A DNA stretch of 43,173 nt from Klebsiella pneumoniae (GCA_945876945.1 CAMCQE010000019.1:1-43173), one strand, 5' to 3'. Positions 19,817-30,195 are shown, counted from the stretch's first letter. Notes: generated from the letters alone by a model not told the origin. A program made the numbers and translations.

Positions 19817-21319
19817 TTAACGACCCAGGAGGGACAGCACGCCCTGCGGCAACTGGTTCGCCTGCGCCACCATCGCCGTACCCGCCTGCTGCAGAATCTG
19901 CGAGCGGGTGAGCTTGGCCGTTTCCGAGGCAAAGTCGGTGTCCTGAATCCGGCCGCGGGCGGCGGAAATGTTCTCCACCACGTTGGACAGATTGCGGGTC
20001 ACGCCTTCCAGGCGGTTCAACTTCGCACCAAGCGTGCCGCGTTCGCTGTTGATGGTGTCGAGCGAGCGCTCGAAGACCAGCATGGCGAGGTTGGCGCCGG
20101 CAGCGGTGGTGACCGACTGCGAGTTCAGGGTGGCGTTGGTCAGCGTGGTCGTGGCCGAGGAAACCCCGGTGAGGGCAGCGCCGGTCACGGTGCTGTTGAA
20201 GGAGGTCGTGAGGTCGTTGAGGTCGTCGTTCAGCACAATCGCGCCGTTCTCACCCGCGGCAACCGAACTGGTGCCGGAGGCGAAGAAGGACGTCACGCCC
20301 GCATCGTTAGACGAGTTAGTGGTCACAGAGATGGCGGCACCGCTGGTGTTGGTCAGCACGATCGACTCGTTGGTGGCGGTACCGTCGGCGGCGGTGACAA
20401 TGGAGGCCGTGATGCCGGTGCCCGCTGCCGTCATGGCGGAGTTAATGGCCGCGACGAGGTTGGTAGCAACCGCGCCATCGCTGGCGGCAGAGGCCACCGC
20501 ACCGATCGCTACGCCGTTGATGGAGAGCGAACCGGCGGCGATACCGTCGGTCACGCCGGCGCTGGTGCCAGCCGATGCATAGTTGGTACCCACCAGGCCG
20601 TTGCCGAAGCTGAAGGCCGACACGCCGGTGGAGGACGTCAGCGCGTTGATGTCGGCGACCTTGGTGGTGGTGGTGGTGCCAGAGGCGCGCGCGGTAGTGA
20701 AGTTCGTGCCTTCAATCGTGCTCGCGGTGGTGATGGCGTTGTTGTAGGCAAAGGCGACGCGGCTCGCGAGACCACCGGCGGAAAGACCGGCGACGGTGGA
20801 GTATTCGCTCGCCACGCCCAGAGAGCTGGGGGAAAGGTTGCCGACGGCCACGTTAATGGTTTCGTTCACCTGCGCGCCCACCTGAAAGTCACCGCTGAAG
20901 GAACCGGTGAGAATCTTCTCGCCGTTGTAGCGGGTCTGGTTAACGATGCGGGACATTTCGTCCAGAATCTGGCTCACTTCCTTGTTGATGGAAGCGCGGT
21001 CGGTGGAGTTGTTGTAGCTGGCCGCCTGCACCGCGAGGTCGTGCGCGCGGTTCATGTTGTTGGACATTTCTTCCATCGCGCCTTCCGCGGTCTGCGCGAC
21101 GGAAATGCCGTCGTTCGCGTTGCGGATGGCGACCGTGAGGCCACCGATTTGGGTGGTCATACGGTTGGCGATGGCGCTGCCGGCAGCGTCGTCTTTGGCG
21201 CTATTGATACGCAGGCCGGAAGACAAACGTTGGATGGCGGTGTTGAGGTCGGCTTGCGAGCGGGACAGATTCCGCTGCGCGTTCATAGAGGCAACATTGG
21301 TATTGATGGACGAAGCCAT
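19817..21319 (-). CDS. fliC: Flagellin
   Basis: A 500-residue flagellin. The N-terminal D0/D1 region includes NTNVASMNAQRNL, LSSGLRINSAKDDAAGSAI (about 32-50) and the C-terminal region ends with MVAQANQLPQGVLSLLGR. The central part (about 180-395) is low in charge and very rich in Ser, Thr, Ala and Gly, giving many possible O-glycosylation sites. The ribosome site is AGGAG. It has a long leader (about 138 nt) below a GCCGATAA sigma-28 box. Two GT41-type glycosyltransferases are divergent from it, and a nucleotide-sugar operon is near, so I infer the filament is O-glycosylated. Confidence 0.97.
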   Translation of the reverse strand: MASSINTNVASMNAQRNLSRSQADLNTAIQRLSSGLRINSAKDDAAGSAIANRMTTQIGGLTVAIRNANDGISVAQTAEGAMEEMSNNMNRAHDLAVQAASYNNSTDRASINKEVSQILDEMSRIVNQTRYNGEKILTGSFSGDFQVGAQVNETINVAVGNLSPSSLGVASEYSTVAGLSAGGLASRVAFAYNNAITTASTIEGTNFTTARASGTTTTTKVADINALTSSTGVSAFSFGNGLVGTNYASAGTSAGVTDGIAAGSLSINGVAIGAVASAASDGAVATNLVAAINSAMTAAGTGITASIVTAADGTATNESIVLTNTSGAAISVTTNSSNDAGVTSFFASGTSSVAAGENGAIVLNDDLNDLTTSFNSTVTGAALTGVSSATTTLTNATLNSQSVTTAAGANLAMLVFERSLDTINSERGTLGAKLNRLEGVTRNLSNVVENISAARGRIQDTDFASETAKLTRSQILQQAGTAMVAQANQLPQGVLSLLGR

Positions 21320-21531: not shown

Positions 21532-21547
21532 TGGCCCGCATATTGCT
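21532..21547 (+). promoter_or_regulatory. Candidate sigma-54 promoter of the TPR glycosyltransferase pair
   Basis: TGGCCCGCATATTGCT keeps TGGC and a perfect TTGCT with exact GG-N10-GC spacing. The predicted +1 falls on or next to the ATG at 21558, which would give a leaderless message. That makes the call tentative. Confidence 0.45.
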
Positions 21548-21557
21548 TTCGCCGGAC

Positions 21558-23720
21558 ATGACACCCAAATCGCAAGCCCCGGCCCGCAACAACCGCTGCC
21601 CCTGCGGTAGCGGCCGCAAGTTCAAGCACTGCTGTCTATTAAGAGAAAAATCGCTCGATTCAGCCGCCAGATTCACCCAGGCGCTGGCGCACGAGCAGCG
21701 AGGTGAGGGCGTCAAGGCGCAGGCGCTCTACGTCGAAATTCTGACGGCGGATCCCGATTTCAGTCCGGCCCTGCAAGCACTTGGGATCATTCAGTACCGC
21801 CAGGGCGACCGCGCAACCGGTCTCAAGTTTTTGACCCGGGCACGTGAACTGACCCCGGACGATCCCGAAATGCTCAATACCCTTGGTGTGATGCTGACGG
21901 ATGAAGGGCAAATCCCGGAGGCCATCGTGTGCCTGCATCGCGCGGTGCAACTGCTGCCTGACTATGCCTTCGCCCATAACAGCCTCGGCAATGCGCTGAG
22001 GGCTTACGGGAAACTCGCTGAGGCAGAGTTCTGTTACCGCGAGACCCTCCGTCTTAAACCCGACTTTGCCGCCGCCATTGGCAATCTGAGCATCGTGCTC
22101 AAAGAAACCGGACGCGTTGCGGAGGCGGCCGCTTGCATGGAGCAAGCCCTGAATCTTGACCCTTCAAGCAGCGACCTCTGGAACAATCTCGGGTCGCTCA
22201 AGCAGCAACTCCGTTTACCGATTGAGGCACTGGCCTGCTATGAGCGCTCGATTGCGCTGGATCCCAATCTCGCTATCGCGCGCTACAACATCGGCACTGT
22301 TTTCTTTGATTTGGGAGACCGCGAGAGTGCTGCACAACATCTCGAAGCCGCGTTGGCGTTAAACCCGTCGCTGGCACAGGCGCATCTCAATCTGGGCAAT
22401 GTGAGAAAAGATCAGGGGCGTTTGGCGGAAGCGATGGCGTGCTACAGCCGCGCGCTCTTGATTAAGCCGGACTATCACGCGGCACACAGCAATCTGCTGT
22501 TTGCCACCGCCTTCATGGACGATATGCAGCCCGCGGAAATCTACGATTTGCACTGTGGGTGGGCGCGCATGCAGTCGAGCGCAGCGACTGGGGCGACTCA
22601 CACAAACACACGAGACCCGCATAAGCGCCTGAAAATTGCCTATGTGTCGCCCGACTTCCGCACCCATGCGTGCGCGTTTTTTCTCGAGCCGCTGCTGCGC
22701 GCCCACCATGTTACAGAAGTGATGGTGCATGCCTACGCGCAGGTGGCCGAGCCCGACGACGTGACCCGCCGCCTGCAAGCGCACGTTGAGGTGTGGCGCT
22801 CGACGGTGGGGTTGTCTGACACCGAAATGGCTGCGCTGATTCGGGAAGACGGCATTGACGTCTTAATCGATCTCGCCGGCCATACGGCGAATAACCGTTT
22901 ACGCGCGCTGGCCTTGAAGCCGGCGCCGGTGCAGGCCACCTACCTGGGTTATCCCGCCACCACCGGGCTGCCGGCGATGGACTGGCGCCTGACCGACGCC
23001 GTCACCGAGCCAGAGGGCATGAGCGAGCAGTTCTACACCGAGCGCCTCTATCGCCTGCCGAACAGCCTGTGGTGCTACCAGCCCTTCGCCGACATGGGCG
23101 AAGTCAGTGTCTTGCCTGCGCTGGCCAACGGCTACGTGACGTTTGGCTCGTTCAATAATTTCTCGAAAATCGGACCGCGCGTGGTCGACCTGTGGGCCAG
23201 AGTCCTCAGCGCGGTGCCCCACTCTCGACTACTGATGCTGACCGTGCCTTCCGGCACCACGCAAAACGCGCTGCTGGAGCGCTTTGAAAGTGTGGGCATT
23301 GCCCGCGGGCGGATTGAACTGCACGACAAGCTGCCGCGACCCACCTACAACGCCATGTTCGCCCGCGCCGACATCGCACTCGATCCGTTTCCCTGCAACG
23401 GCGGCACCACCACCTGCGATGCGCTGTGGATGGGCTTGCCGGTGGTGGCGCTTATCGGCGAACGCTTTCTCTCCCGCGCCGCGTTCAGCGTGCTCAACGC
23501 CGCCGGGTTTGGTGAGCTCGGCGCTCGCGACGAGCTTGCCTACGTTGAGCGCTGCGCGGCGCTCGCTGCAGATCTCCCGGCGCTCGCCGAGCGCCGCAGG
23601 GCGATGCGCGGAAGAATGTCCGCGTCACCTTTAATGGATGCCGAGCAGTTTGCGAGCGATATTGAAGCCGCCTACCGCGCGATGTGGACGGCCTGGTGTC
23701 AGGCAGAATCCAACACATGA
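21558..23720 (+). CDS. SEC-C / TPR / GT41 (SPINDLY/OGT-like) glycosyltransferase
   Basis: A 720-residue protein with three parts. Residues 10-26 form a SEC-C metal-binding motif (NNRCPCGSGRKFKHCC; C14, C16, C25, C26 likely bind zinc). About nine TPR repeats follow (40-335), with the usual LNTLG, AHNSLGNAL and AHLNLGN turns. The C-terminal half (about 355-715) is a GT41 catalytic domain of the O-GlcNAc transferase superfamily, with LAGHTANNRLRALALKPAPVQ, YLGYPATTGL and CNGGTTTCDALWMGLPVV. It should transfer a sugar to Ser/Thr of a protein, by inference flagellin, since it is divergent from fliC. The start is fixed by the SEC-C motif; the ribosome site is weak. The stop overlaps the next gene by 4 nt. 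Donor and target are not proven. Confidence 0.85.
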   Translation: MTPKSQAPARNNRCPCGSGRKFKHCCLLREKSLDSAARFTQALAHEQRGEGVKAQALYVEILTADPDFSPALQALGIIQYRQGDRATGLKFLTRARELTPDDPEMLNTLGVMLTDEGQIPEAIVCLHRAVQLLPDYAFAHNSLGNALRAYGKLAEAEFCYRETLRLKPDFAAAIGNLSIVLKETGRVAEAAACMEQALNLDPSSSDLWNNLGSLKQQLRLPIEALACYERSIALDPNLAIARYNIGTVFFDLGDRESAAQHLEAALALNPSLAQAHLNLGNVRKDQGRLAEAMACYSRALLIKPDYHAAHSNLLFATAFMDDMQPAEIYDLHCGWARMQSSAATGATHTNTRDPHKRLKIAYVSPDFRTHACAFFLEPLLRAHHVTEVMVHAYAQVAEPDDVTRRLQAHVEVWRSTVGLSDTEMAALIREDGIDVLIDLAGHTANNRLRALALKPAPVQATYLGYPATTGLPAMDWRLTDAVTEPEGMSEQFYTERLYRLPNSLWCYQPFADMGEVSVLPALANGYVTFGSFNNFSKIGPRVVDLWARVLSAVPHSRLLMLTVPSGTTQNALLERFESVGIARGRIELHDKLPRPTYNAMFARADIALDPFPCNGGTTTCDALWMGLPVVALIGERFLSRAAFSVLNAAGFGELGARDELAYVERCAALAADLPALAERRRAMRGRMSASPLMDAEQFASDIEAAYRAMWTAWCQAESNT

Positions 23721-26083
23721 GCGTGCAGCAACAGCTAGAGCAAGCCTTGGCGCTACATCAGACGGGAAAATTTTCGGAGGCCGCGGCGGGCTATCGGAAA
23801 ATCCTGCGCAAACAACCCGCGCATATCGATGCACTGCATTGTCTGGGACTCGCCGAGCGCGCACTCGGGGAACTCGACAGTGCGCGAGCACGGCTGGAGC
23901 GCGTGGTAGCGATCCGTCCCGGCTTTGCCGAGGCGCGCGGCAACCTGGGGCTGGTTTACAGCGAACTCGGGGAATTAGCGCTGGCCGAACAGGCCGCGCG
24001 CGCCGCGCTCGAGCTCAAACACGGCATGCCCGAGGTGTGGCTCAATCTCGGGCACGTTCTACGCCGTCAGGGGCGGATAGCGGATGCGCTTGGTTGCTAC
24101 GAGCAGGCTTTGACTTTGAGGCCGCAGTCGCTCACCCATCAAGCCATTGGTGAGGTGCTGCTGGAATCCGGCGCGCCCGAAGCTGCGCGCCAGCATTTTG
24201 AGAGCGCTGCTTTGCTGGAAGGCGAGAAGGCCTTGCTCCACTACCAGATCGGTACGTCCTACGCGCAACAGTCCAATATCGAAGCGGCGATAGCGGCTTT
24301 TTATCGCGCCACCCAACTGCAGCCCGACTTCGCCGAGGCGCATAACGAATTGGGCAACGCGCTCGCCAAATACGCCCGTACCGATGAAGCGATCGTCTGT
24401 TTCGAGCGCGCGCTGGCGCTAAAGCCCGATCTGGTTGAAGCGCTGAATAATCTGGGCAACGCGCTCTCGCATCTCGGACGACCGCGCGATGCGGTGAGCT
24501 GTTTTGTGCGCGCTCTCGAATTGCGCCCCGACACGGCCGAGCTCCATCAGAATTTTGGCATCGTGCTCTACAACGGGCGGCGCTATCAGGAGGCGCTTGA
24601 GTGCTTCGAACAAGCGCTGAAACTCAAGCCCAATCTGGCGACGGCGCTGAACAATGCGGGGCTAGTGCTCAAAGAACTTGGCCGGCATGCCGAAGCCATC
24701 AGCAGATTTGAATCGGCTTTGCTGCTAGAACCGGCGTTTCCTGAGGCCTGCAATAACCTCGGCAACGTGTACAAGGGGCTGGGTAATCTCCAGCTCGCGC
24801 TGGAGTATTTCGCCCGGGCCGTTGAGCTTAAACCCGACTACAGCAGCGCCCACAGCAATTTTCTGTTCACGCTCAATTTTGCCGATGGTGTCACGCCGGC
24901 TGATATCGCGACCGCTCACCGCGACTGGGGTGTTCGCCATGCCGGCGCGCTACCGGTCTACGCTGACTACGCGAATACTCGCGATCCCGCCCGGCGCCTT
25001 CGGATCGGCTATGTCTCCACCGATTTTTGTGCGCACGCCTGTGCGTTTTTCATGGAGCCGCTGCTGCGGCATCACGATCGGGCGAATGTTGAAGTGCACG
25101 CTTTCGCGGAACTGGTGCAGGCCGACGTGGTGACCGGGAAGCTCCAGGCGCTAGTCGACCGTTGGCACCTGATCACCGGATTACGTGACGAAGAAGTGGC
25201 CGCCCGCATTCACGCGGCGGAGATCGATATCCTCATTGATCTGAACGGTCACACGGCCAACCATCGCCTGCTGAGTCTGGCGCGTAGGCCAGCGCCCGTG
25301 CAGGTGACCTATCTCGGCTATCCGGCAACAACCGGTTTGGACGCCGTGAGCTGGCGTTTGACGGATGGGGTGACCGAGCCAACGGGCGAGAGCGACCAGT
25401 TCTACACCGAGCGACTTTACCGGCTGCCCAACAGCCTGTGGTGTTATCAGGCCCCGATAGACATGCGCGCCATAACGCCGCTGCCAGCGCTGGAAAACAC
25501 GTTCGTCACCTTTGGCTCGTTCAACAGTTACTCCAAGGTCGGCCCGCGCGTGGTGGCGCTCTGGGCTGATGTTCTGCAAGCGGTTCCGGATTCAAAAATT
25601 ATCCTGATCACGGTGCCTTCGGGCGCCGCGCAGGAAGATCTCTGGCAGCACTTCGAAAGCTTCGGCGTTGCGCGCTCGCGTGTTCTGCTGCGCGACCGGC
25701 TGGCTCGCGCGGATTACATACAGACGTTTTCCGAGGTCGACATCGCACTGGACCCTTTCCCCTGCAACGGTGGCACCACCACCTGCGATTCCCTGTGGAT
25801 GGGCCTGCCGGTGGTGGCGTTGAAGGGCAATACCTTCCTCTCCCGCGCCAGCCTCAGTGTGCTGACTGCGGCCGGATATCCAGAGTTTGCCGCCGACAAC
25901 GAGGACGATTACATCGCCCGCTGCGTGTCTTTGGCGAGCGACTTGCCTGCGCTGGAACGCGTTCGACGGGGCATGCGCGAGCAAGTGGCGCAATCGGCAT
26001 TGACTGATGCGACAGGTTTCGCACGCGATGTGGAAGCGGCTTATCGCGCGATGTGGCGAGAATGGTGCGCCCACAACGCCTGA
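23717..26083 (+). CDS. TPR / GT41 (SPINDLY/OGT-like) glycosyltransferase, second copy
   Basis: A 788-residue paralogue of the preceding protein. It lacks the SEC-C motif but has a longer TPR array (about 5-395) and the same GT41 domain (about 415-785), with LNGHTANHRLLSLARRPAPVQ, YLGYPATTGL, QFYTERLYRLPNSLWCYQ and CNGGTTTCDSLWMGLPVV. Start is the ATG in the ATGA overlap at 23717; upstream in-frame codons lie inside the first gene. Long stretches of the two catalytic domains are nearly identical, which points to a tandem duplication with later divergence of the TPR targeting region. The gene ends 10 nt before the convergent GNAT gene. A role in flagellin O-glycosylation is inferred from position. 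Confidence 0.85.
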   Translation: MSVQQQLEQALALHQTGKFSEAAAGYRKILRKQPAHIDALHCLGLAERALGELDSARARLERVVAIRPGFAEARGNLGLVYSELGELALAEQAARAALELKHGMPEVWLNLGHVLRRQGRIADALGCYEQALTLRPQSLTHQAIGEVLLESGAPEAARQHFESAALLEGEKALLHYQIGTSYAQQSNIEAAIAAFYRATQLQPDFAEAHNELGNALAKYARTDEAIVCFERALALKPDLVEALNNLGNALSHLGRPRDAVSCFVRALELRPDTAELHQNFGIVLYNGRRYQEALECFEQALKLKPNLATALNNAGLVLKELGRHAEAISRFESALLLEPAFPEACNNLGNVYKGLGNLQLALEYFARAVELKPDYSSAHSNFLFTLNFADGVTPADIATAHRDWGVRHAGALPVYADYANTRDPARRLRIGYVSTDFCAHACAFFMEPLLRHHDRANVEVHAFAELVQADVVTGKLQALVDRWHLITGLRDEEVAARIHAAEIDILIDLNGHTANHRLLSLARRPAPVQVTYLGYPATTGLDAVSWRLTDGVTEPTGESDQFYTERLYRLPNSLWCYQAPIDMRAITPLPALENTFVTFGSFNSYSKVGPRVVALWADVLQAVPDSKIILITVPSGAAQEDLWQHFESFGVARSRVLLRDRLARADYIQTFSEVDIALDPFPCNGGTTTCDSLWMGLPVVALKGNTFLSRASLSVLTAAGYPEFAADNEDDYIARCVSLASDLPALERVRRGMREQVAQSALTDATGFARDVEAAYRAMWREWCAHNA

Positions 26084-26093
26084 GGGGCTAAAG

Positions 26094-26972
26094 CTAGATT
26101 CGATCGAACCAGGGAATGTGCCATCCGCGCCATCGCGCCTGATGAGCGCGAGGCGACAGCAAGCGCCAATGCGCGAGCGCCTGATCTTTGAACTGCATCG
26201 CGGTGTTGGCAATCAACCAACGATGCCAGGCACTACCGACGACATCGTTCACGTACACCTGACGAGCCCCGGCGGAAATCTGATGCCATAGCATTGGGAA
26301 GCTCTCGGGTTTACCGACAACTTCATACACGTAGCGGGTCTCGCCGTTGAGGCCGAACAGGGCATAAGCGTCTTCGTTTGCCATTGCCCATGCGGTTTCA
26401 GTGGTGTGGGCCGGCAAGGGCGTTACCGTCCAGTCCGCTGCGTCGCGTTGAACGCGTTGCGTCTGGTGTTCACGTTGTAGATGGTTGAGTTGAGCGACTG
26501 TGGGCAGCGGGTGGCGGGACAGGGCAGGGGCCGATGCGACATTGAGTACGCCGATGATCCCGCGGTCGTGGCGCATCCAGCCCAGGTTTTCATAGTAATG
26601 GTCGAGACCGCTCCAGAGCACGGCGAAGTCGACGCGTTTGGCGTGCAATTGCGTGATGGCGTGGCTTAAGACCTGCGCGGCATAGCCACGGCCGCGTGTT
26701 GCTGCTCGCGTGTACACCATGCCAATCATCGCCCCGCGCCACTGCGCGTCCGGCGTTATCCAGTCGAATTCGCGCATCACGCAGCAACTGGAGATTTCCT
26801 CGCCCGTTCGCAGCACTACCGTGTTGGAGAACGCCGTTTGGCCCATCGCATTGGGAAAGCGAGAGGCTAAGGATCCGGTTCGACCGCGCTCGGTCACGAA
26901 GGTCGCATCCAGCGCCGCGAGCAGCGCAGGCCACTCGGCTTCGGTACAGCAGTCGATGATGGGAGAGGCCAT
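26094..26972 (-). CDS. GNAT acetyltransferase, probably for an amino sugar or flagellin glycan
   Basis: A 292-residue protein with an N-terminal GNAT domain (about 1-150): the acetyl-CoA loop is R-G-R-G-Y-A at 93-98, preceded by GMVYTRAATRG and followed by WSGLDHYYENLGW. A second domain of about 140 residues follows, ending in an aromatic-rich tail; I do not recognise it. It is the last gene of the sugar operon and its ATG overlaps the previous stop by one base (TGATG), so it is coupled to the DegT-like gene. By analogy with pseudaminate and bacillosamine pathways it would N-acylate the amino group made by the aminotransferase. The substrate is unproven. Confidence 0.7.
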   Translation of the reverse strand: MASPIIDCCTEAEWPALLAALDATFVTERGRTGSLASRFPNAMGQTAFSNTVVLRTGEEISSCCVMREFDWITPDAQWRGAMIGMVYTRAATRGRGYAAQVLSHAITQLHAKRVDFAVLWSGLDHYYENLGWMRHDRGIIGVLNVASAPALSRHPLPTVAQLNHLQREHQTQRVQRDAADWTVTPLPAHTTETAWAMANEDAYALFGLNGETRYVYEVVGKPESFPMLWHQISAGARQVYVNDVVGSAWHRWLIANTAMQFKDQALAHWRLLSPRAHQARWRGWHIPWFDRI

Positions 26973-28108
26973 CAGTCGGTCTGCTGGAGGCATTCGAGAA
27001 TTCGCGCCAGAGCTGCCTCGTCCACCCACCACCCGCAGGGCACGCAAAGATTTTCGCGGTCAAAAATCTCAACGCCGGGGAGCTCGTCAGCGCTGCTGCG
27101 CCGAAAGCAGGAATAGCGATCGTTACGTACATGAAGACGTTGCGCGCCGATGCCTGCGGCCTGAAGTCTCGCGATAAGCCGCTCCCGGTGCGCGGCGCGA
27201 AAGGCGAACACCCAGTAAGCGGAGCGCTGCTCATCACCGCGTGAGAGGGGTGTGATGCAAGACAGATGCTGCGTGCTTATCGCGAGCACGCGCCCGTTGG
27301 CCCGATGTCTGGCGAGCGTATGCTCGACTTCATTGAACTGCTCCAGCGCCAGTGCCGCGGTTAAATCGGTCATCGCCATGCTGTAGCCGGCGATGGGGAT
27401 GTCGCTTTGTGGATTGAGGTCCCCGTTAGGCAGCCGAAAGGTTTTGTGGTCGATGCCGAATCGCCGCAGCTGGCGCGCGCGCTCGGCGTGTTCGGCCGAG
27501 CGGCAGAAGAGCGCACCGCCATCACCCGCCGGCAGATGGCTTACGGCGTAAAAGGAGTAAATGGTGAAGTCACTGCCGGTGGCGCCAAGCTTTTGCCCTT
27601 GGAGTTCGGCGCCAAACGCGCCCGACGCATCTGCAATGAGTGGGATCCCCAGTTGGACTGCGACCTGCTGAAGTTCACCCAGCGGGCCCACATCGCCGCC
27701 CCAATGGTAGTGAATGATGGCTTTGGTACGCGCCGTGCGGCGGGCCGCCAGCAATGCAGGGTTAAGCATGCCGGTGTCAGGATCGACGTCGCACCACACG
27801 GGCTTTGCGCCCAAATTGGCAATGGGCATGGTGGTGGCGAGACAAGCCAGCGGGGAGAGCATGACGTCGTCACCGGGCGTGACCCCGCAGAGTCGAAGGG
27901 CGATGGTGAGCGCGCCGGCGCGATCGCTGGTGGCCACGCAGTGGGGATTACCGACGAACTGGCCGAGCTTGTCTTCGAAGGCTTTTACTTTGGGGCCGGT
28001 GGCGAGTTGTCCTGAGGAGAGCGTTTCGGCCAATGCCGCCGCGGCACCGGGCGCGATGCGACCTTTGAACAGGGGGATGAAAGGCTCACCAGCCACGGCG
28101 GAGCACAT
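26972..28108 (-). CDS. DegT/DnrJ/EryC1/StrS-fold protein lacking the PLP lysine
   Basis: A 378-residue protein of the sugar aminotransferase fold (type I PLP enzymes) whose active site is altered. The usual lysine in the S-F-x-x-x-K motif is serine (S190 in YSFYAVSHLPAGDGG). The phosphate-binding SGTAAL loop reads DRAGAL (62-67), and the His/Gln that follows the PLP aspartate (DAAH in its neighbour, H168) is glycine (DASG, 160-163). The aspartate D160 is kept. The frame is intact and overlaps the upstream DegT gene by 23 nt if it starts at 28108; a GTG 12 nt inside is an alternative start. Both tandem proteins end with a PCGWWVD motif. It may be a non-catalytic partner or do different chemistry such as dehydration. 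Confidence 0.8.
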   Translation of the reverse strand: MCSAVAGEPFIPLFKGRIAPGAAAALAETLSSGQLATGPKVKAFEDKLGQFVGNPHCVATSDRAGALTIALRLCGVTPGDDVMLSPLACLATTMPIANLGAKPVWCDVDPDTGMLNPALLAARRTARTKAIIHYHWGGDVGPLGELQQVAVQLGIPLIADASGAFGAELQGQKLGATGSDFTIYSFYAVSHLPAGDGGALFCRSAEHAERARQLRRFGIDHKTFRLPNGDLNPQSDIPIAGYSMAMTDLTAALALEQFNEVEHTLARHRANGRVLAISTQHLSCITPLSRGDEQRSAYWVFAFRAAHRERLIARLQAAGIGAQRLHVRNDRYSCFRRSSADELPGVEIFDRENLCVPCGWWVDEAALARILECLQQTD

Positions 28109-29210
28109 CCACCATGTAGTCTCGCGCTTCGTCGTCAACCCACCAGCCGCAGGGGATGTGCAGCATGCGGGGATAAAAGCGATCGAGACCCGGTAACTCG
28201 CAACGGCTGGCGGCAAAGACGCTGTGGAGGTCGTTGCGTTTATGCGCCTTCGAGTTGCCAATGCCGTTAGCTGTGAGGTGATCGGACAGCCCTGCGGCGT
28301 CGTCGCACATCACCGTATAGAACCAGTAGGAGGGCGCCGCCCGCGCCTCGAATCGACACAGTTCCAGACCGCCGATGCCCTGCAGGGCGCTGTCGAGATA
28401 GCGGCCGTTCTCAATGTGCCGCGCAAGCAGCGGCGCGATGCAATCGAGTTGGGCCAGCCCAATCGTCGCGTTCACATTATTCATGTGGTACTTGAAACCC
28501 ACTTCAGCGACGTCGACCTCGGTGCGCGAGGCCTGGCGGTCGATGCCAAACCAGCGCAGGCGTCGGCCCATCGGCAGCAGTGCGGCATCGGCGCAGGCCA
28601 GCATGCCACCGTCTACCGTCGTCATATGTTTGATCGCCTGCAGGGAAAACATCACGAACGCCGAGTGGCTGCCCAGCACTTGCCCGTTATAGCTGGCGCC
28701 GAGGGCGTGGGCGGCGTCTTCAATCACGGGGATCCCATGGCGCGCGGCGACCTCATTAATCTCTGCGATGGGTACCGGAATACCGCCGTAATGCACCACC
28801 AGAATGGCGCGGGTGCGAGGCGTGATCGCGGCCGCCACGCTGGCCGCTGTGACGTTGCCATTTGCGGGATCAACATCGGCCCACCGCGGAATGGCGCCGG
28901 CGTGCAGGATGGCGAGATTGGTCGGCTCGGCGGTCATGGCCGTGCTCACCACATCGTCGCCAGGTTTCACACCAGCAAGCAGCAGCGCCACATGCAGGGC
29001 CGCAGTGCCGGAATAGAACGACAGGCAGCGCGGGTTGCCTACCCATTCGCCGAAGCGCTGTTCAAACTCTGCAACCGGCGCGCCTTCGCTGATCTGCCCG
29101 CTGTAGAGCACCTCCTGCAAGCGAGGCATGAGGGTTTCCGGTGGCGGCAGTCCAACCTTGAAGAGCGGGATCTCCCGGCGCTGTGCGCTAGAACTTGGCA
29201 AATTCGCCAT
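28086..29210 (-). CDS. DegT/DnrJ/EryC1/StrS sugar aminotransferase
   Basis: A 374-residue PLP-dependent aminotransferase with all expected motifs: SGTAAL phosphate loop (67-72), PLP aspartate D165 and H168 in IEDAAHALGA, and the Schiff-base lysine K194 in FSLQAIKHMTTVDGG. Enzymes of this family put an amino group on the 4-keto sugar made by a 4,6-dehydratase, and such a gene lies directly upstream with a 23-nt overlap. It should therefore make a 4-amino-4,6-dideoxy NDP-sugar. The C-terminus carries IPCGWWVDDEA, shared with the downstream lysine-less paralogue. The start at 29210 has a weak GGAAATG site, consistent with translational coupling. The exact sugar is not determined. Confidence 0.88.
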   Translation of the reverse strand: MANLPSSSAQRREIPLFKVGLPPPETLMPRLQEVLYSGQISEGAPVAEFEQRFGEWVGNPRCLSFYSGTAALHVALLLAGVKPGDDVVSTAMTAEPTNLAILHAGAIPRWADVDPANGNVTAASVAAAITPRTRAILVVHYGGIPVPIAEINEVAARHGIPVIEDAAHALGASYNGQVLGSHSAFVMFSLQAIKHMTTVDGGMLACADAALLPMGRRLRWFGIDRQASRTEVDVAEVGFKYHMNNVNATIGLAQLDCIAPLLARHIENGRYLDSALQGIGGLELCRFEARAAPSYWFYTVMCDDAAGLSDHLTANGIGNSKAHKRNDLHSVFAASRCELPGLDRFYPRMLHIPCGWWVDDEARDYMVDVLRRGW

Positions 29211-30195
29211 CGGCCATTTCCATGATTTCGAATTCCTGATCCGCCAGCTCGATCATGCGTTTCACTTCATCCAGATCGGCCAGATAGTCGTTTGACGCAA
29301 ACTCACCGCTGATTTCTTGATAACGCGCCTTGTTCCACCAGGGCTGGATGGCGTAGTAGTCGCCGAAATCCCGGCCGCGCACGAGCTCCTCTTCGGAGAC
29401 CAGAATTTCGTGGAGCTTCTCGCCCGGAATGATACCGATGATCTTGTAGTCGAACGGCTTGCCCGCTTCCTCGGACAACACGCGACCGATATCCGGGATT
29501 GTCGCGGCTTTGGCCTTCCGCACAAAAATCTCGCCGCCCTGAGTGTTCTCTGCCGCATACAGCACGAGATCGATAGCCTGATTGAGTGTGAGCAGAAAGC
29601 GCGTCATGCGCTCGTCGGTGATGGTGATGGTTTGGCCGAGCGCCAGTTGGCGACGGAAGAAGGGCACCACCGACCCTCTCGAACGCAACACGTTGCCATA
29701 GCGAACACAGCAGAATTTGCTGCCTTTGTTAGCGCGCGACAGGTTGCCCTGTAGCACCAGACGCTCCTGCAAGGCTTTCGTCATGCCCATCACGTTGACG
29801 GGCTTTACCGCTTTGTCCGTACTGATCATCACAAATTTTTCGACCGCGTGGCGAAGCGCGCAATCGACCAGATTCTCCGCGCCCAGCACATTCGTGCGCA
29901 CCGCTTCCATCGGATGTTGTTCGCAGGTCGGCACCTGCTTCAGGGCGGCGGCGTGGAAGACGATGTCGATGCCGTGCATCGCTTCATCGACTGAATCGCG
30001 GTTACGGATGTCGCCGATGACGAAAGTGAGGTCCTTGCGACCTTGATAGAACACTTTCATGTCGTACTGTTTTTTCTCATCACGGGAGAACACGCGGACT
30101 TCGCGCACCCCGGCGTTCAGCAGGCGGCGGACCACAAAGTTGCCGAATGATCCGGTGCCTCCCGTGACCAGCACGGATTTATTCTGATAGTCCAT
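29188..30195 (-). CDS. NDP-N-acetylhexosamine 4,6-dehydratase (FlaA1/PseB/CapE group)
   Basis: A 335-residue extended short-chain dehydrogenase/reductase. The Rossmann motif is TGGTGSFG (11-18). The catalytic region reads ISTDKAVKPVNVMGMTK, so the triad is S125, M136, K140: methionine replaces the usual tyrosine, a variant known in the WbpM/CapE side of the family. Further markers are VRYGNVLRSRGSVVPFF, DERMTRFLLTL and GEKLHEILVSEEE. It converts UDP-HexNAc to a 4-keto-6-deoxy sugar, with or without C5 inversion; the sequence does not tell which. It has the ribosome site GGAG and leads the sugar operon behind a sigma-54-like promoter at 30257-30272. Confidence 0.88.
   Translation of the reverse strand: MDYQNKSVLVTGGTGSFGNFVVRRLLNAGVREVRVFSRDEKKQYDMKVFYQGRKDLTFVIGDIRNRDSVDEAMHGIDIVFHAAALKQVPTCEQHPMEAVRTNVLGAENLVDCALRHAVEKFVMISTDKAVKPVNVMGMTKALQERLVLQGNLSRANKGSKFCCVRYGNVLRSRGSVVPFFRRQLALGQTITITDERMTRFLLTLNQAIDLVLYAAENTQGGEIFVRKAKAATIPDIGRVLSEEAGKPFDYKIIGIIPGEKLHEILVSEEELVRGRDFGDYYAIQPWWNKARYQEISGEFASNDYLADLDEVKRMIELADQEFEIMEMADGEFAKF

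Follow-up and report, generated by a model that had tools for sequence, protein, structure and literature searches.

The window analyzed here is the whole 43,173-nucleotide (nt) stretch of Klebsiella pneumoniae DNA GCA_945876945.1 CAMCQE010000019.1:1-43173. It contains two tandem genes for DegT family proteins, of which the upstream one encodes a protein with a complete pyridoxal 5′-phosphate (PLP) site and the downstream one (the second copy) a protein in which this site has been dismantled. We judge it fairly likely (probability of roughly 0.6) that the pair represents the catalytic subunit and a co-evolved non-catalytic subunit of one sugar aminotransferase, with the association of the two proteins predicted from comparative sequence evidence. 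On this best reading, the second copy would be an obligate subunit, without catalytic function of its own, in a heteromeric aminotransferase acting on a uridine diphosphate (UDP)-4-keto sugar. That widely different bacteria have the same pair suggests a working partner in the second copy and not a decaying gene. The features concerned are the following:

26972..28096, minus strand: second DegT paralogue, predicted to be non-catalytic (a pseudoenzyme), with DRAGAL, D157, G160, S187 and PCGWWVD; start at GTG 28096, assigned by conservation
28086..29210, minus strand: catalytic DegT/DnrJ/EryC1/StrS aminotransferase of 374 amino acids (aa), with SGTAAL, D165, H168, S189 and K194 all present
28086..28096, minus strand: overlap of the two DegT reading frames, 11 nt when counted from the conserved start

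Sequence and fold of the two DegT copies

Both proteins score far above the curated PF01041 cut-off of 19.8 bits (267 bits for the active copy and 236 bits for the second copy), and they are 37% identical over 368 aa (E = 4e-74). The cofactor site of the 28086-29210(-) protein is complete (SGTAAL at 67-72, D165, H168, S189 and K194), so the lysine, aspartate, histidine and SGT loop of a functional PLP sugar aminotransferase are all in place, as an earlier note made from the sequence alone had read them. In the pairwise alignment, S187 of the second copy falls opposite K194, DRAGAL opposite SGTAAL, G160 opposite H168 and D157 opposite D165; PCGWWVD is common to both proteins, and D157, S182 and this motif are retained in the second copy of the window. 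The note had described the second copy as having serine for the PLP lysine (its S190, since its start lay three codons further upstream) and DRAGAL in place of the phosphate loop, and as keeping the fold, the aspartate and PCGWWVD, and the alignment and models agree with each of these points. It had also described a glycine in place of a PLP-stacking histidine. The glycine is there, but the stacking role is not that of the histidine: in Spr1654, His173 forms a hydrogen bond with O3′ of PLP, and the residue stacked against the ring is Tyr84, or Trp in ArnB (PMC5936713). The 23-nt overlap given in the note depends on a start at ATG 28108, which among window-lineage loci is found only in the window and its nearest relative; the GTG 28096 position is common to all of them and gives the 11-nt overlap at 28086-28096, through which the two genes are likely to be translationally coupled.

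The AlphaFold (AF2) models of the two proteins have predicted local distance difference test (pLDDT) values of 95.0 and 95.2, and their secondary-structure elements correspond one to one. The strand that precedes the Lys/Ser position stops five residues before that residue in both models; the lysine therefore does not align elsewhere in the second copy, a possibility that the note had raised and that the alignment and the matching secondary structures rule out. The best Foldseek matches for both copies are TlmJ, AtmS13, CalS13 and ArnB, which are fold-type I sugar aminotransferases.

The catalytic copy is, on alignment to ArnB, also unusual. The PLP-packing position (A94) is Ala in 37 of 37 active partners, with the rest of the site intact. 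The same column is Cys in all 45 second copies (C86 in the window) and in the nearest solo relatives, and Phe in AtmS13, CalS13 and more distant relatives.

Distribution of the pair and selection on the second copy

The note had proposed a search for the same gene pair elsewhere. A profile of second copies was run against genome contigs and gave 48 loci, 46 of which have a second copy of this kind; the other two (L058 and L059) have only a solo relative with the lysine. The 46 further loci lie in Pseudomonadota, Bacteroidota, Selenomonadales and one cyanobacterial single-cell genome. The active partner is directly upstream of the second copy in 45 of them and ∼3 kb upstream in the remaining one (L082, Bacteroides faecichinchillae). 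No second copy without a partner was found in samples of 369 genomes (class), 149 genomes (genus Acinetobacter) and 249 genomes (family of Flavobacterium psychrophilum), in which the pair itself is rare (about 1-2%). The pair is present in all eight other searched genomes of the genus and in three from different genera of the same family.

In a quick tree, the second copy sits on longer branches than the active copy. This faster evolution and the loss of PLP residues are the features that would fit decay of a duplicated gene, or an error of the assembly. However, the frames of the second copy are intact in 46 loci from independent genomes, 15 columns are invariant among 45 second copies, and these sequences form one old clade across phyla. 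In ten close locus pairs, the ratio of nonsynonymous to synonymous substitution rates (dN/dS) is 0.085-0.21 for the second copy and 0.05-0.24 for the active copy. Decay, which the note had named as an outcome in relatives that would speak against its proposal, is thus refuted by dN/dS and conservation, and we give this explanation next to no weight. The selected pseudoenzyme that the note had proposed gains strong support from the same dN/dS values, the presence of the pair in every searched genome of the genus and the ancient, Lys-poor clade described below, which is accompanied across phyla by an active partner at each locus.

Three observations concern individual loci. The active partner of L082 (L082:5989-7073) is interrupted once in the draft sequence and continues in another frame, where its tail can still be recognized. 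L047 and L085, contigs of metagenome-assembled genomes (MAGs) that are titled Klebsiella pneumoniae and surely misnamed, carry window-lineage genes that are 57-65% identical, in the same flagellar context. L064 (a Prochlorococcus single-cell genome) and L070 (a marine Flavobacteriales MAG) have nearly the same pair, with second copies that are 88% identical. Such similarity points to a recent transfer or to contamination in one of the two records.

Phylogeny and the lysine column

A careful tree was built from 92 proteins, including 45 second copies and 37 active copies, with support given as bootstrap/Shimodaira-Hasegawa-like approximate likelihood ratio test (SH-aLRT). All second copies form one clade (99/95), and all active copies form another (98/96). 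In the quick tree, parallel subclades appear in both copies (window/beta, Acinetobacter-Bacteroidota and Sphingomonas-Shewanella), the solo relatives with Lys (L022, L058 and L059) are nearest to the second copies, and AtmS13 and CalS13 lie outside. The monophyly of both clades and the same three subclades in each indicate one duplication that was followed by long joint inheritance. The second copy is thus shown, at the level of phylogeny, to derive from a single ancient duplication, with the PLP-site residues lost on its stem.

Serine, which the note took as the state that sets the second copy apart, turned out not to be the defining one: over the 46 loci, the Lys column contains Arg in 31, Ser in 6, Asn in 4, Thr in 1 and Lys in 4. 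Arg is therefore the commonest state overall, and Ser/Asn/Thr is the variant of the window lineage; the tree requires at least five changes at this column. The loop and the column vary together. All 11 loci with a DRxGAL loop, in which Arg is the second residue, have Ser, Asn or Thr at the Lys column, and the other 35 loci have Arg or Lys there. This may hint that one basic residue is retained in the old PLP pocket, a hint only, because the pattern may have arisen a single time, at the base of the window lineage. In the beta lineage, four second copies (L051-L054) have Lys at the PLP column, yet their phosphate loop is altered and Glu replaces the His; the Lys may have been either kept or regained.

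Residues kept and lost in the second copy

The active copies are invariant at 61 sites. At 16 of these, at least 95% of second copies have the same residue, and at 20 no more than 10% do. The kept set includes G38, G43 and R229 (G30, G35 and R222 in the second copy), H323, S189, G201 and the P, G and W of PCGWW, whose C and first W are nearly invariant in the active copy and kept in the second copy as well. The lost set includes the phosphate loop with G68, T93-P96, H168, I193-K194 and K240-Y241. Every second copy is without the S/CGT phosphate loop and the O3′ His/Gln, and the PLP Schiff-base lysine is replaced in 42 of the 46 loci (by Ser in the window and by Arg, Ser, Asn or Thr across the set). 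The Asp column is retained as Asp in 41 of 45 second copies, with Glu in the other four.

Lys-less DegT enzymes that use bound pyridoxamine 5′-phosphate (PMP) exist, namely the ColD/E1 3-dehydrases, and a second copy of this type would explain why D157 and S182 are kept, as the corresponding residues of relatives contact the ring nitrogen and the phosphate of the cofactor. Like the second copy, ColD and E1 have a DegT fold without the PLP lysine. However, they have His at the Lys column and an intact cofactor site (the PDB names include E1 H220K mutants), whereas second copies have Ser, Asn, Thr or Arg at this column, and the phosphate loop and O3′ His are gone, often with Asp at the phosphate position. 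Furthermore, the pathway neighbors are those of an aminotransferase. PMP-dependent catalysis by the second copy is therefore very improbable, and the view of the note that serine at the Lys column is a different case from ColD/E1 stands.

The residues that the second copy retains lie on the UDP side of the site (G30, G35, R222, H323, N326 and PCGWW), and those for the cofactor and the amino donor are gone. In related homodimers, the SGxI loop and a flexible loop contact the uracil and phosphates of UDP (PMC5936713, PMC8040287). In the Spr1654 homodimer, Gly28* and Ile30* of the SGxI loop and Gln234* of the flexible loop bind UDP from the other subunit (PMC5936713), as do Lys215 and Tyr229 in Pcryo_0638 (PMC8040287), which we place in the flexible loop after the 'GID' segment. 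A literature search on cross-subunit residues added no further cases. Relative to its partner, the second copy has this loop extended by about seven residues, with the conserved pattern FRxxxG[DE][LI]xxxxD[IV], which includes R222, G226 and D233. The retained SGxI- and flexible-loop elements together with the long loop fit a subunit that helps to hold the UDP-sugar.

A proposed two-subunit aminotransferase and its alternatives

In the model that we propose, the two proteins would associate as a heterodimer, or as a tetramer that contains both kinds of subunit. The catalytic subunit would bind PLP and transaminate a UDP-4-keto-6-deoxy-(N-acetyl)hexose supplied by the neighboring 4,6-dehydratase. 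The second subunit, without a working PLP, would supply UDP-side elements and its extended loop, a loop of the kind that crosses into the site of the partner in homodimeric relatives; alternatively, it may stabilize or regulate the catalytic subunit. The neighboring N-acyltransferase would then acylate the amine, and in the window lineage the adjacent glycosyltransferase family 41 (GT41) proteins would place the sugar on flagellin.

Several observations weigh against this model. Four second copies carry Lys at the PLP column. The loops of AtmS13 and CalS13 are short too, which makes loop length alone weak evidence. The active copy keeps its own cross-dimer elements (G38, G43 and R229). Finally, all active copies have K240 and Y241, in a segment that presumably reaches across the dimer, and the second copies have lost both. 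Should this segment indeed reach across, a homodimer of two active copies may be the catalytic unit, with the second copy in an outer, separate or regulating position. The lysines matched by K240 (Lys241 of ArnB and Lys257 of Spr1654) hold the amino donor (PMC5936713).

The last point leads to a related arrangement, in which the second copy would be a putative regulatory subunit and a UDP-sugar bound in its dead site would tune an active-active homodimer of the catalytic subunit. This would account both for the retention of UDP-side residues with loss of those for the cofactor and the amino donor, and for the fact that the active copy keeps all residues of a self-contained homodimer, including K240 and Y241; we nevertheless consider it unlikely. 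A similarly low rank is given to the second copy being a separate enzyme that performs PLP-independent chemistry on the UDP-sugar, e.g. as an epimerase or isomerase before transamination, and forms no complex. Many nucleotide-sugar pathways require an epimerase step, and the second copy has, besides its UDP-side residues, a preserved polar pocket (D157, S182 and G194) and fixed residues of its own (C86 in 45 of 45 and Y329 in 44 of 45). However, the residues of the old pocket differ by subclade (DRxGAL with G/A and S/N/T, DxxxAL with E/N and R/K, and SYNxAM with E and R), an unusual degree of variation if a new active site had been conserved, and we know of no DegT-fold enzyme that works without PLP or PMP. 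A broader proposal, namely that an ancient and widespread family of DegT pseudoenzymes has converted its PLP site into a cofactor-free UDP-sugar site for new chemistry or for sensing on behalf of the twin, is conceivable but doubtful. Under this proposal, the basic charge of the old pocket would have shifted in the window lineage from the Lys column to the phosphate loop.

Comparison with known systems

The closest solved relatives by sequence are AtmS13 (4xau/4zwv) and CalS13 (4zas), which are also among the top folds for both copies (template modeling (TM) scores of 0.91-0.94) and share in part the RND...H and GWW motifs with the pair. They differ in that the Lys, the SGT/CGT loop and the His/Gln are kept; they are single genes in the set used and lie outside the clade of both copies. 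The best NCBIfam match of both copies is PseC, which likewise acts after a PseB-type dehydratase in the synthesis of a flagellin sugar. However, PseC is one gene, the scores against TIGR03588 are 189.5 and 191 bits with a cut-off of 423.5, and the window genome has no detected NeuB for pseudaminic acid.

By analogy, the nearest working parallel to the proposed two-subunit enzyme is serine palmitoyltransferase, in which LCB1, without the PLP residues of LCB2, is thought to aid catalysis and regulation (PMC3794620). As in the DegT pair, LCB1 and LCB2 are homologous fold-type I PLP subunits with the PLP lysine in one of them only, and the DegT copies are likewise paralogues that always occur together, one of them Lys-less except for the four copies with Lys. 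The differences are that serine palmitoyltransferase belongs to another PLP subfamily, catalyzes another reaction, and is eukaryotic and membrane-bound, and that association is a prediction in the DegT pair.

Sugar aminotransferases are described as homodimers, and only a few heteromeric PLP enzymes contain a dead subunit; to our knowledge, no such heteromer is known among sugar aminotransferases. In full-text literature searches, whose scope included few subscription journals, no description of a DegT heteromer or of a partner subunit without the Lys was found. Public records and profile libraries label both proteins as DegT aminotransferases, PHROGs gives only a generic aminotransferase match, and the single Sphingomonadaceae pair in plasmid records has no annotation beyond DegT aminotransferase. 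On the best reading, one member of the pair would be a pseudoenzyme that serves as a subunit of a PLP enzyme, a kind of which no example is known to us in this family. If a complex is formed, dozens of bacterial pathways for surface and flagellar sugars have been annotated with two aminotransferases in place of a single two-subunit enzyme, and attempts at reconstitution with one gene could fail. The natural variants (Arg/Ser/Asn/Thr/Lys, in three subclades and several phyla) also form a set for studying how a cofactor site is dismantled while fold and partnership are kept.

Genetic neighborhood and predicted product

The minus-strand genes are transcribed in the order 4,6-dehydratase, active DegT, second DegT and GNAT acyltransferase. 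Two plus-strand genes for proteins with tetratricopeptide repeats (TPR) and a GT41 domain (21543-26083) adjoin this sugar operon and are followed by flagellin, FliD and other flagellar genes. The neighboring features are:

29188..30195, minus strand: NAD-dependent nucleotide-sugar 4,6-dehydratase of PseB/FnlA (Polysacc_synt_2) type by profile matches, presumed source of the 4-keto substrate
26094..26972, minus strand: GNAT N-acyltransferase (Acetyltransf_9; PF13527, 1.1e-14), presumed to acylate the new amine
23684..26083, plus strand: TPR and GT41 protein by profile match and neighborhood, candidate enzyme for transfer of the product to flagellin
21543..23720, plus strand: second TPR and GT41 protein by profile match, with an N-terminal SEC-C motif, candidate flagellin glycosyltransferase
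19817..21319, minus strand: flagellin by profile match, presumed acceptor protein

Relatives of the dehydratase are found near the pair in 41 of 49 loci, a count that includes the window and the solo loci. Window-type GNAT relatives occur in 17 loci and adjoin the pair throughout the window/beta lineage except in one locus; many other loci have other GNAT or hexapeptide acyltransferases. These neighbors point to a route from a UDP-sugar through 4-keto and 4-amino intermediates to a 4-N-acyl sugar. GT41 proteins are present in 12 loci of the window/beta lineage, and in the window lineage the sugar is probably transferred to flagellin; Wzx flippases are present in 17 loci of other lineages, which points to its incorporation into O-antigen or capsule. 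In papers on Flavobacterium psychrophilum O-antigen loci, the sugar made by the pair of the type strain is not settled.

The search for NeuB was negative in the window genome, which is 97% complete, and in seven of eight further genomes with the pair. The product is therefore likely to be used directly, without conversion to a nonulosonic acid. A pseudaminic acid pathway was considered and rejected, as the PseC and PseB cut-offs were missed and the genome has no detected NeuB; the dehydratase at 29188-30195 falls short of the curated PseB cut-off and of that for FnlA.

The tandem TPR and GT41 genes at 21543-26083(+) lie beside flagellin and face the sugar operon; as the genome has no detected NeuB, their products may transfer a UDP-diamino sugar directly to flagellin. 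In this they would differ from those flagellin glycosyltransferases that are known to us to use pseudaminic acid.

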